From assembly GCA_025936825.1 (NCBI GenBank), contig JAICSO010000006.1, positions 124,001 to 188,000 of the forward strand: a stretch of 64,000 nucleotides of DNA. Direction: 5' to 3'. Below are positions 6,234 through 9,732 of the stretch, piece by piece. Under the pieces are notes generated by a model, which saw only the letters and a program-made list of their open reading frames with translations, made no database searches and had not been told where the DNA came from. Each line of letters opens with the position of its first letter. Positions within the stretch are counted from its first letter, which is position 1. Origin of the DNA: Terriglobales bacterium (lineage in GTDB: Bacteria; Acidobacteriota; Terriglobia; Terriglobales; Acidobacteriaceae). A program made the position numbers and the translations under genes.

Positions 6234-6413
6234 CTACGATTTCGGAGCAGACTTCTGCGCCTTCCTTTTATGCCAGCGCGCCTGGGCCGCCTTGCGGGCC
6301 ACTTCCGTGCGCTGCTCGGGGGTCATCTTCCTCGCGGTAGCCTTGCCGCCTTTTTGGCCCTGCTTCTTAAAGAACTCGATCAGCTCTGGCGGAAATGCTG
6401 GCATCTTGGCCAT
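6234..6413 (-). CDS. 59-residue Lys/Arg-rich small protein
   Basis: A small gene found by reading the - strand directly. The product is 59 residues, begins MAKMPAFPPELIEFFKKQG, continues GGKATARKMTPEQRTEVARK and AAQARWHKRK, and ends in tandem stops (TAGTAG). The pattern GGKARAxxMTPEQRxEVARKAAxARW is a recurring short basic motif in bacterial small proteins, often suspected to bind nucleic acid; I know no proven function. Codon usage is clearly coding (Lys/Arg/Gln in frame without stops, sensible third positions). The ribosome binding site is weak. It is monocistronic and divergent from the recombination cassette to its right. Confidence 0.7.
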   Translation of the reverse strand: MAKMPAFPPELIEFFKKQGQKGGKATARKMTPEQRTEVARKAAQARWHKRKAQKSAPKS

Positions 6414-6479: not shown

Positions 6480-6509
6480 TTGACATGCACAGGGGGGTGC
6501 GCATAGGAT
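6480..6509 (+). promoter_or_regulatory. Sigma70-like promoter of recombination cassette
   Basis: A perfect TTGACA (6480-6485) is followed after 18 bases by TAGGAT (6504-6509), with transcription expected to start near 6516 and a leader of about 70 bases to the first gene. It is the only good -35 box I found in this interval and sits just ahead of the six-gene + strand cassette. Confidence 0.5.
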
Positions 6510-6588
6510 ACAGCTGTCCGAACGGCCCGACTAGGTGTTGGAAGCACCCAGCCGAGCCTAACCAAAGCGACCTAACAAGGAGGTCCCA

Positions 6589-6792
6589 ATGGCTGATCGC
6601 AAGCCTACACTCGTTTTCTCTCCTGCGTTTTCCACAATTCACACCGCAGGCCGCATCGAGCAATTGATTCGCGAAGTTGACACTGTCGCCGACCGCGTCG
6701 AACAGGACGCGCAGCTCAAACGAACTCACGGCATGACGCGAAAAGATTGGGATGCTGCCTTGTCGCTGCATCTGCATGGAGATCTGCGATGA
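6589..6792 (+). CDS. 67-residue protein, first gene of cassette
   Basis: An unrecognised 67-residue soluble protein. It contains a helical, charged stretch (GRIEQLIREVDTVADRVEQD) that could be a short coiled coil, and ends in a basic/aromatic tail. It is very probably real: AAGGAGG at 6577-6583 sits five bases before the ATG, and its stop overlaps the next start as ATGA. As leader of an operon of DNA-annealing and nuclease genes it may be an accessory or regulatory subunit, but nothing in the sequence proves it. Confidence 0.6.
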   Translation: MADRKPTLVFSPAFSTIHTAGRIEQLIREVDTVADRVEQDAQLKRTHGMTRKDWDAALSLHLHGDLR

Positions 6793-7562
6793 GAAGGCGT
6801 TCAGCACTCACCGATCTACGTCGTCAAAACAAAACCGTCGCCCACGCGATCTGGGGCGCTCTTGCGCCGGTTCTCGACCGGGCACTCGAGCAAATAACGA
6901 ACAGATTTTCGTTCTGCATCGCAACTGGAGACATCATCCTGCTGAATGGTCGATGGTACGTGACGCACAGCGGACTAATCAGTCTTGCCTTTCGCGAAGG
7001 ATGCAACGGAATCTCAACGTCCGTGGTGCGAAGGTATTCGGAAGCAGGTTCCCGAACTTGGACCTTTAGAGCAACCGTTTACAAGAAGAACGCAAAGCGA
7101 GGATTCGTCGGGTATGGCGATGCAGATCCATCAAATGTTTCGCCCTCTGTTCATGGTGCAGAAATGAGAGTAGCGGAGACTCGAGCAGTAAACCGGGCGC
7201 TCCGCAAAGCTTACGGAATTGGGATTTGCTCGATTGAGGAGCTCGGAAGTCAGAGATGTGACCAGGCGCCGCAACGCGATCTTCGGAAACTTCCGCCGGA
7301 GAAGGTCGATACGGGCAATAGCAACGGGAACGGCGCGCGTCTGCGCGACCGACTCTGCCAGATCATCCGTAAACACGAACTGGATGGTGAGCTGGTTAAG
7401 GCTTACGCCACAGATTTCTGTGGAACCAAGACTCTTCGAGAGGCTACTCGGGAGCAAGTCGAAGCCTTCGTTGTCCACATTGCCGACTGGGCCGAAAAAG
7501 ACCGCAATGCCCTGCTCTGTCAGCTGAACAGCTACGCGCGGCCGCAGGCAGGTGCGGCATGA
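6789..7562 (+). CDS. Putative single-strand annealing protein (Rad52/RecT-like)
   Basis: A 257-residue protein starting at the ATG that overlaps the preceding stop. The core (about residues 40-155) reads CIATGDIILLNGRWYVTHSG, then FRATVYKKNAKRGFVGYGDA and AEMRVAETRAVNRALRKAYG. An aromatic/basic beta region ending in an Ala-Glu-Thr-Arg-Ala-x-x-Arg-Ala-Leu helix is what one sees in phage-type annealing proteins of the Rad52/ERF kind, but I assign it by pattern and context, not by a definite family hit. The C-terminal third is charged and variable, as in such proteins. With the SSB-like gene and the PD-(D/E)XK nuclease downstream it would form an annealase-nuclease recombination module. Confidence 0.55.
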   Translation: MRRRSALTDLRRQNKTVAHAIWGALAPVLDRALEQITNRFSFCIATGDIILLNGRWYVTHSGLISLAFREGCNGISTSVVRRYSEAGSRTWTFRATVYKKNAKRGFVGYGDADPSNVSPSVHGAEMRVAETRAVNRALRKAYGIGICSIEELGSQRCDQAPQRDLRKLPPEKVDTGNSNGNGARLRDRLCQIIRKHELDGELVKAYATDFCGTKTLREATREQVEAFVVHIADWAEKDRNALLCQLNSYARPQAGAA

Positions 7563-7999
7563 AGCGCTACGTGTCGGGACTCAGCAAAGCTGATCCGGCG
7601 CCAGAGCAGGGCATGCGAGACGGCATGTTCCTTGTTCGGGTTGAGCACGCCCAACACCGTTGGCAGCCTCAAAAGCCGTATTTTTCTGTCTTATTTCTTG
7701 TCCTTGAGCCAAATGAAACACGAGGCCTGCGGTTCTCCGCACGACTCTACGCCACGGCCAAAGCTCTCTGGAAACTCAATTGGTTTCTGCACGACTTTGG
7801 CTATGACGGGGAGCTGCTAGGACGGGACGAGATTGACGACAAGAACCTGGTCGGGCTCTCCGGAGTCGTCAAGGTAAGCCACCCCGTGGTGAACGGCACT
7901 TCCCTGCTCAACCTTGACGCATTTGCGACGAAAGACCGGTGGGCCGAATTAGGAATCGCTACAGGTGGGTTGGCCGACCCTACGCGGGTGGCGTCATGA
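7559..7999 (+). CDS. SSB/DUF669-like phage-type protein
   Basis: A 146-residue soluble protein with a beta-rich N-terminal half (PYFSVLFLVLEP, RLYATAKALWKLNWFLHDFG) and a segment YDGELLGRDEIDDKNLVGL followed by GVVKVSHPVVNGTSLLNLDA. This layout of compact beta strands and a Lys/Asn-Leu edge before a Gly-Val-Val strand resembles phage DUF669-type proteins, thought to be single-stranded DNA-binding partners of recombination systems. Both ends overlap neighbours by four bases, so it is translated with them. I consider the DNA-binding role an inference from resemblance and neighbours. Confidence 0.5.
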   Translation: MKRYVSGLSKADPAPEQGMRDGMFLVRVEHAQHRWQPQKPYFSVLFLVLEPNETRGLRFSARLYATAKALWKLNWFLHDFGYDGELLGRDEIDDKNLVGLSGVVKVSHPVVNGTSLLNLDAFATKDRWAELGIATGGLADPTRVAS

Positions 8000-8799
8000 T
8001 CTACAGCTTCACCCAACTCAGCCACTACATCAGCTGCCCACGCCGCTATCGGCATCGCTATCTCGACGGCTGGCAAGAGAAAGACACACGGGCCGCCATG
8101 CTTTTCGGGCGAGCTTTTGAGCAAGCCCTTGCTGCCTACTTCCGCAAGGAAGACGCAGCCCCCACCCTCTATCGCGAATGGGCCGCCTACAAAGCACAAC
8201 CACTTCACTACTCCGAGCGTGACAGCTGGGACGGCATGCTGCAGCAAGGCATTCAGCTCCTCGAACGCTTTTGTCAGGACGACCGGGTTCGTGTGCGGCA
8301 ACCAAGAAAGAACCTGCAAATTAAGTTCGTCAGACCGATCGGAGACGGAAACGAGTTCGTGGCCTACGTAGACGCGATTGGCAAGCTCGACGGAACAGGA
8401 TGCTTGCTCGAGTGGAAAACAACCTCAAGCCGCTATGCCGAGGAACCTCAAGGCCTTCTCGGCCTTGACCCTCAATTGCTCTGCTATTCGTGGATCACAG
8501 GAATCTCTGAAGTTGCGCAAGTCGTGTTCGTGCGGAAACGACTGGTCGAAGTCCAGTACCTTCGCACCATGATCACTGATGAGCAGCGTCGGGAGTTCAG
8601 TTCCCTGGTTCACGAAACCGTTCGGCAGATTGAATCCGCCCAGTTTCTGCCGCACAGCGGGATTCGTTTCCCGCAGAACCCATGCAGCACCTGTCCTTTC
8701 GTCGGGCTTTGCCTACATAAACCTCAATTGATCGATGCCGGCCTCATCCGCCGACCCGGAGCCCAGAACTTTGGTATGTTTGACGAACTTGCATACTAG
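7996..8799 (+). CDS. PD-(D/E)XK nuclease, Cas4/RecB-like, four-Cys
   Basis: A 267-residue RecB/Cas4-family nuclease. It opens MIYSFTQLSHYISCPRRYRH, the usual first motif with a cysteine, has FGRAFEQAL soon after, and carries the active-site pattern VAYVDAIGKLDG then LLEWKTTSS (Asp; Glu-x-Lys) about residues 120-145. The C-terminus has CSTCPFVGLC, so the four cysteines expected of an Fe-S-clustered AddB/Cas4-like fold are present. Such enzymes degrade one DNA strand to leave tails for annealing proteins, which suits the preceding genes. No cas1/cas2 or repeats are present, so this is not a CRISPR Cas4. The ATG overlaps the previous stop (ATGA). Confidence 0.8.
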   Translation: MIYSFTQLSHYISCPRRYRHRYLDGWQEKDTRAAMLFGRAFEQALAAYFRKEDAAPTLYREWAAYKAQPLHYSERDSWDGMLQQGIQLLERFCQDDRVRVRQPRKNLQIKFVRPIGDGNEFVAYVDAIGKLDGTGCLLEWKTTSSRYAEEPQGLLGLDPQLLCYSWITGISEVAQVVFVRKRLVEVQYLRTMITDEQRREFSSLVHETVRQIESAQFLPHSGIRFPQNPCSTCPFVGLCLHKPQLIDAGLIRRPGAQNFGMFDELAY

Positions 8800-8809
8800 T
8801 ACACCTCCT

Positions 8810-9511
8810 ATGCCGCCCAAGGTGAACGACAAGCGAGCGCTCTTCGTGCTGTCGAAGATTGACGAGATTCTCGCCTGGGAGAAGCGCCAGGAAGCAGAGA
8901 AAGATACGCGCTTCGTCGAATTGGGACGATATCTTTGCGAAGTTCGTGCTGGACAGTACTGGCGTTTGGAGAGATTGTCGTCGTTTGATGAGTTCCTCGA
9001 GAGACGCTTCCCAGAATCTCGACGCAAAGCTTACTACTTGATGTCCATACACGAACACCTTCCGCCAGAGGCGAAACGCGAGCTCAAGCAGGTGGGATGG
9101 AGCAAGGGTTTGGAATTGGCGAAACTGGCCCGACGAAATGACGGTCAGGATTTCGATTGTGCAACCTGGTTGCACAAAGCACGTGTACTTCCCAAAGAGC
9201 AGTTTCGCCACGAAGTGGAGAAGGAACTGACGGGAAAGGATTCAGAACCTTCCGAACTCATCTACTTCAAGGTTTATAAGAGCCAGATTCCGGTCATCGA
9301 GCAGGCACTCGAAGCCGCTTCCTTGATGCTGGGCACCGACAAGTCTCGCGGCTACTGTCTGGAGATGATCTGCGCAGATTTCTTAGCGGGAGCGAATCTC
9401 GATCACGCAAAACCCGAACAGCTCTTGCGTTCTGCCCTGCACTTTTTCAGGTTCCTACCTAGAGAGCAGCAACACTCTTTTCTCACATCAATTCAGACGA
9501 AACTGGCTTGA
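8810..9511 (+). CDS. Unknown helical protein in recombination cassette
   Basis: A 233-residue, mostly helical protein, not recognised. It has a charged N-terminal helix (SKIDEILAWEKRQEAEKDTR), a segment reading RFPESRRKAYYLMSIHEHLP that looks like a helix-turn-helix or DUF3102-type DNA-binding element, and a C-terminal helical bundle. It follows the nuclease by ten bases and overlaps the HNH gene by four, so it belongs to the same operon. The start at 8810 lacks a clear ribosome binding site; an upstream in-frame ATG at 8735 would lie inside the nuclease gene. A DNA-binding or replication-linked role is plausible but unproven. Confidence 0.6.
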   Translation: MPPKVNDKRALFVLSKIDEILAWEKRQEAEKDTRFVELGRYLCEVRAGQYWRLERLSSFDEFLERRFPESRRKAYYLMSIHEHLPPEAKRELKQVGWSKGLELAKLARRNDGQDFDCATWLHKARVLPKEQFRHEVEKELTGKDSEPSELIYFKVYKSQIPVIEQALEAASLMLGTDKSRGYCLEMICADFLAGANLDHAKPEQLLRSALHFFRFLPREQQHSFLTSIQTKLA

Positions 9512-9732
9512 GTCCTTCATATTTCAAAACGACACCTATGCGGCTGTCGCCGACTGCGTACGAAACAGTCCGAAGACAGATCCTCGAACGCGACGGCTGG
9601 AGATGCCAATCCTGCGGATCAATGAAGAATTTGGAAGTCCATCATCAGCAGTATCGAAGCCACTCAGGGGAAGACACCCAAGAAAACCTGATCACGCTTT
9701 GTTCGAAATGTCATAAGTGCCGTCACTCATAG
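9508..9732 (+). CDS. Small HNH endonuclease
   Basis: A short HNH protein, 74 residues from the TTG that overlaps the previous stop (TTGA), or 64 from ATG 9538. The motif is complete: RDGWRCQSCGS (first CxxC), LEVHHQQYR (the two histidines), ENLITLCSKCHKC (Asn and second CxxC). The protein ends three residues after the motif, without the C-terminal extension many HNH proteins have. HNH enzymes nick or cut DNA; stand-alone small ones are common in phage and plasmid modules and sometimes serve repair. It is last in the cassette. Neither start has a convincing Shine-Dalgarno sequence; coupling favours 9508. Confidence 0.75.
   Translation: MSPSYFKTTPMRLSPTAYETVRRQILERDGWRCQSCGSMKNLEVHHQQYRSHSGEDTQENLITLCSKCHKCRHS

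Follow-up and report, generated by a model that had tools for sequence, protein, structure and literature searches.

A gene cassette in the window, by which we mean the whole 64,000-nucleotide stretch of Terriglobales DNA analysed here, probably serves as the recombination core of a family of small mobile elements in Acidobacteriota that derive from prophages or satellites, with a putative parS/KorB-like site lying inside the gene of its ParB-like protein. Our literature search found no paper that describes this system. Below we describe the organization of the cassette and its predicted proteins, its copies and their insertion sites, and a palindrome that is maintained within one of its coding sequences.

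Organization of the cassette

The cassette belongs to a run of open reading frames on one strand (6589-9732) in which successive genes are joined by stop/start overlaps. The preliminary description had read this run as a six-gene operon; the single strand and the overlaps stood, and the number of genes did not. The first open reading frame, P0001 (67 aa; 6589-6792, + strand), was matched by tblastn neither in the genome's three other copies nor in nine loci of related genomes, and the conserved unit is therefore P0002 to P0006, with P0001 probably outside the core of the element. The promoter proposed earlier was recovered in our scan as a sigma-70-like match, TTGACA-18-TAGGAT, at 6480-6509 (+ strand; 18 bp spacing), where 1.4 such matches were expected by chance in the region. 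Divergent from the operon is P0007 (59 aa; 6234-6413, - strand; phrog_2384, E 6e-8), a basic protein of the GGKxGGK...ARKAxxARW type that occupies the slot held by RHH/Arc or XRE regulators in other copies; the same family fills the same slot in other loci. No Rfam or tRNA feature was found within the window. A chance origin of the operon is excluded, because the same gene order recurs in about 80 loci and the dN/dS values of P0004 and P0005 (0.04-0.09) denote strong purifying selection.

Predicted proteins

P0002 (6789-7562, + strand) had been described as annealing-like, and this stood at the level of fold, in a predicted model. The protein has no Pfam match, and Foldseek alone gave weak matches for its AlphaFold model (pLDDT 78.7) as well as for that of P0005. 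The model contains the annealase core fold, a beta-sheet with a long helix, as a fold-level match, together with a helical C-terminal part. By VIA Z its best match was human RAD52 (8.8), with lambda Red-beta (8.3 over 121 residues) and Mgm101 (7.1) below it; the RAD52 matches are of middling Z, and dsRNA-binding domains, which have the same core topology, tie just below the annealases. Since three annealase families stand near the top of this ranking, P0002 is likely a single-strand annealing protein of the Rad52/Red-beta type. Its viral relatives, none of which was found from the single sequence, emerged from the alignment: gp49 of Paenibacillus phage API480 (hhalign, 97.7%) adjoins SSB and primase genes. 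The N-terminal third of P0002 (6789-7100 in the window) varies much more than the remainder and looks as though it had been swapped between copies.

P0003 (7559-7999, + strand) is a protein of 146 aa, conserved in the alignment. It matched nothing among protein families or PDB sequence profiles and showed no similarity to the SSB that adjoins the P0002 homologue in phage API480, which leaves the earlier assignment of P0003 as SSB-like without support; such a role is a guess from gene position.

The four-cysteine PD-(D/E)XK nuclease reported earlier was confirmed in P0004 (7996-8799, + strand), a Cas4/AddB-like exonuclease by its matches to PF12705 (E 9e-19) and to the exonuclease family phrog_1218 (E 1.6e-12). 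The catalytic residues D126, E139, K141, Q160 and Y164, which form a PD-(D/E)XK motif with QxxxY, are invariant in the alignment, as are the N-terminal C14 and the C-terminal C230, C233 and C239 in eight copies; this cysteine pattern fits the Fe-S cluster of Cas4/AddB-type exonucleases, and such a cluster is predicted for P0004. The score against the NCBIfam cas4 model was 23.8 bits, below the cut-off of 65, which places P0004 outside the CRISPR Cas4 family. No phage record matched P0004, and PDB sequence profiles matched neither P0004 nor P0005. The last gene, P0006 (9508-9732, + strand; TTG start), forms the right end of the homologous unit and encodes a small HNH nuclease, as had been proposed (PF01844, E 2.5e-10), with conserved HH, N, H and Cys pairs.

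Two proteins had been left without assignment; one of them, P0001, is not conserved, and the other, P0005 (8810-9511, + strand; 233 aa), is predicted to be a DNA-binding protein of the ParB/Noc/KorB type. Its all-helical AlphaFold model (pLDDT 80.6) has the fold of the ParB HTH DNA-binding domain, and its 12 best structural matches are all ParB, Spo0J or Noc chains (Z 8.3-11.2), among them Spo0J-parS at 11.2 and Noc and ParB at 10.4 each, with KorB (7.3) and SopB below. Residues 1-143 align to the HTH domain of ParB only; the N-terminal CTPase domain is absent, and the cassette contains no ParA-like gene. P0005 matched a protein of Vibrio phage KarBoss (hhalign, 97.5%), and its relatives in this phage and in Stenotrophomonas phage DLP_3 lie near genes for RecA/UvsX, a Cas4-like exonuclease and RuvC. 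No plasmid relatives of P0005 were found.

Copies and distribution

The preliminary description had seen no repeats nearby, but the genome contains three further copies of the operon, which forms a dispersed repeat of its own; the four lie on contigs of 213, 52, 1122 and 44 kb. In one of them (C140), P0002 is reduced to 32 residues and P0003 is frameshifted. We found 154 relatives of P0005 in the genome collection, of which the best 80 are all in Acidobacteriota records; among these 80, soil Acidobacteria carry from one to six copies per genome, and several genomes hold four to six. The order of genes, for which other Acidobacteriota were to be checked, is conserved, with all five genes present in 53 of the 61 loci uncut by contig ends. 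Presence is patchy: the cassette occurs in 9 of 61 relatives, and a sample of 396 from the phylum yielded it in this genome alone. The P0005 tree groups the copies of a given genome together and places those of Korobacteraceae among those of Acidobacteriaceae.

A recognised small DNA-binding protein adjoins P0002 divergently in 42 of the 53 loci with enough upstream sequence. By a cluster count over these 53 loci, the regulators are of RHH (29, one of them also XRE), XRE (8) and GGK (5) type. Further upstream, some copies have DUF5763 or a gene of the STGPRT family. In 15 of 53 loci, a protein of this 'STGPRTxxGK' family is encoded upstream of the cassette (for example L005, 6352-7578, and L029, 6670-7467), and the two that were scanned matched no Pfam family.

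Insertion sites

DNA homology between copies stops near the operon ends, even at 93% identity, and the flanks are unrelated. The flanks of the copy in the window are too divergent at the DNA level in relatives for an empty-site comparison. Empty sites were found for the C139 copy. In two genomes of the same genus, the genes that flank this copy are joined directly, with 158-263 bp between them, while the occupied site holds 7.1 kb comprising aminotransferase, TPR, STGPRT and XRE genes and the cassette, with its right junction no more than about 145 bp from the HNH stop. These empty sites imply insertion of the whole 7.1-kb stretch, including the aminotransferase and TPR genes, and not of the cassette alone.

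The earlier view that integrase and capsid genes were lacking nearby held for integrases on the contig of the window; for structural genes, no recurrent family was found beside the cassette among the neighbour clusters listed, which does not describe a complete prophage. We found the cassette accompanied by no integrase, transposase or capsid gene and by no conserved terminal motif; no conserved motif follows the HNH gene, and the loci compared share no conserved element ends.

Two tRNA-Leu(taa) genes that are 92% alike flank the C105 copy (L007, 8296-8385 and 14192-14281), and the one near its HNH end has a mismatched acceptor stem and resembles a decayed duplicate. Flanking tRNA genes as a general integration site were rejected, having been seen for this copy only. 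Elsewhere, this genome and genome G004 share a dispersed repeat, a stretch of about 57 bp (L005, 12174-12232) with dozens of occurrences.

Link to phages

On three viral contigs (L116, L117 and L119), DUF5763 and a split terminase large subunit (phrog_2, E ~1e-6; phrog_5653, E ~1e-5) lie upstream of the cassette and divergent from it, and on a bacterial contig of the same genus (L138) the same terminase is joined to P0002 and part of P0003. These terminase-joined cassettes point to a phage-like origin. Together with the annealase fold predicted for P0002, the Cas4-like exonuclease and the phage homologues of P0002 and P0005, they favor the earlier reading of a Red/RecET-type module, and we conclude that the cassette is of phage type and usually stands without phage structural genes. 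The split terminase accompanies few copies only, on short contigs, and is absent from 78 loci among the best 80 of the 154 relatives and from this genome. The same terminase family occurs in viral contigs of 40-80 kb, in which no match to P0002 or P0004 was found, an empty answer that carries little weight there. This terminase, which had no match in the phage record collection, has 107 relatives in IMG/VR, including the soil viral contigs L146 and L159; on a chromosome lacking the cassette (L137, G003:C22, 6484-10382), it stands with DUF5763 and an XRE and ImmA/IrrE-like pair.

It is possible, if hardly probable, that every copy is simply what was left over from a decayed tailed prophage, as the terminase-linked viral contigs, decayed copies such as C140 and the decayed tRNA-Leu duplicate beside the C105 copy would suggest. 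However, the five genes are intact and under strong purifying selection, other phage genes are unseen beside nearly all loci, and no cassette was matched in the large phages that carry this terminase, all of which argues against this reading.

A palindrome maintained inside the P0005 gene

The codons for CATWLH within P0005 contain a 21-bp palindrome, TTGTGCAACC-T-GGTTGCACAA (9157-9177, no strand assigned), that is exact in 47 of 83 cassettes. Conservation at third codon positions is 0.94-1.0 inside the palindrome and about 0.65 around it. Eight cassettes carry a paired change to TTGTGCACCC-T-GGGTGCACAA (the C-G form), which replaces Thr with Pro and Leu with Val, and one further cassette has a T-A version. 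Palindrome cells changed on both sides numbered 10, compared with 2.6 in shuffles (0/500), and, given the well-supported branches of the P0005 tree, the C-G form must have involved three or more changes. The palindrome is thus maintained by compensatory paired mutations. In 6.54 Mb of the genome, the motif is confined to the four P0005 genes and one further position, the outer end of the C105 element, where it has two mismatches; second copies also lie upstream in loci L059 and L108.

The simplest reading is that the palindrome is a candidate binding site, of parS/KorB type, for P0005 itself. An RNA hairpin tuning the expression of P0005 and P0006, with a 9-bp stem and a 3-nt loop, would likewise account for the paired changes, but we consider this explanation of the site unlikely, as the predicted P0005 fold is that of the DNA-binding ParB/KorB proteins and palindrome copies occur beyond P0005, at the outer limits of elements.

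In 20 of 86 loci, the cassette has another copy or remnant of itself nearby, and 47 of 51 such matches are on the same strand, mostly head-to-tail. Remnants that consist of the C-terminal part of P0005 with P0006 often break near the palindrome. The proposal that they break exactly at it was weakened, as the junctions are not identical and L059 and L070 share one event. Genes that by eye resemble toxin-antitoxin genes (zeta-like, PIN/RHH and a HigA-like C-terminus) lie just before or between such remnants (L063, 12305-13917; L041, 8875-9542; and downstream in L059 and L070).

These arrays and breakpoints, with the second palindromes at the far end of C105 and upstream in L059 and L108, the clustering of copies by genome and the lack of any integrase found, would fit an element that moves by itself: its HNH nuclease and exonuclease would cut and resect DNA, its annealase would carry out insertion at homologous cassettes or at palindromes, and its ParB-like protein would mark the site. 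Such integrase-free elements would increase in number in Acidobacteria through single-strand annealing of their own, with the ParB-like protein and the intragenic palindrome directing insertion beside older copies. We regard both this route and this wider picture as doubtful, since the breakpoints differ and those of L059 and L070 are one shared event, palindromes are prone to deletion anyway, element ends are not conserved, and most single copies lack a second palindrome.

Discussion

For the reading that we favor, a phage- or satellite-derived recombination core, the following order of events may be proposed. The divergent small DNA-binding protein, whether of RHH, XRE or GGK type, probably represses the adjoining cassette. 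Expression of the cassette would supply two nucleases, HNH and Cas4-like, to generate DNA ends and resect them, and the putative Rad52/Red-beta-type annealase would pair the resulting single strand with homologous DNA. P0005 may bind the intragenic palindrome and thereby autoregulate the operon or gather DNA ends, and insertion or packaging of the element may require a phage or some other partner.

The cassette would work like a Red/RecET module, and its predicted folds are those of the parts of such a module; it does not qualify as a complete prophage or, by the features tested, as a classical satellite or ParABS system. Like the Red/RecET modules of phages (lambda Exo-Bet, RecE-RecT), it combines an exonuclease and a predicted annealase in one operon, and Red-beta is among the best folds for P0002; unlike them, it has an exonuclease of the Cas4/AddB type with four cysteines and additional ParB-like and HNH genes, and its copies are scattered over chromosomes with no phage structural genes. 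The KarBoss and DLP_3 modules share a P0005 relative near a Cas4-like exonuclease, with RecA/UvsX and RuvC, but have a RecA-type recombinase nearby and no recognised Rad52-type annealase, and they belong to whole large phages. With ParB-parS, Noc-NBS and KorB-operator systems the cassette shares the predicted fold of P0005, a palindromic site and the location of this site within the protein's own gene (in Bacillus subtilis, a parS is located inside spo0J); it differs in lacking a CTPase domain and ParA, in the sequence of its 21-bp candidate site and in being a recombination operon. Phage satellites (PICI, P4-like, cf-PICI) are likewise small, with a divergent DNA-binding gene, and some cassette copies have a terminase and may lack capsid genes, but the cassette has no integrase or defined att sites, and the terminase is present in few copies.

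A single domesticated module, whether a host repair island or an anti-phage island, as had also been suggested, is very improbable: it would agree with the purifying selection and with the toxin-antitoxin-like genes near some remnants, but fits poorly with the patchy presence (among relatives and in the phylum sample), multiple copies without synteny, empty sites, head-to-tail arrays and repressor-type neighbor, and PADLOC gave generic Cas4/HNH matches only, with nothing pointing to defence.

The palindrome, kept by compensatory mutations that change amino acids, is a rare and directly testable intragenic DNA site. The element is compact and repeated, and it unites a putative annealase with a Cas4-like exonuclease, a ParB-like protein and an HNH nuclease in a phylum that is abundant in soil yet poorly known. 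The cassette offers a clear test case of whether annealases can drive the spread of an element without an integrase.
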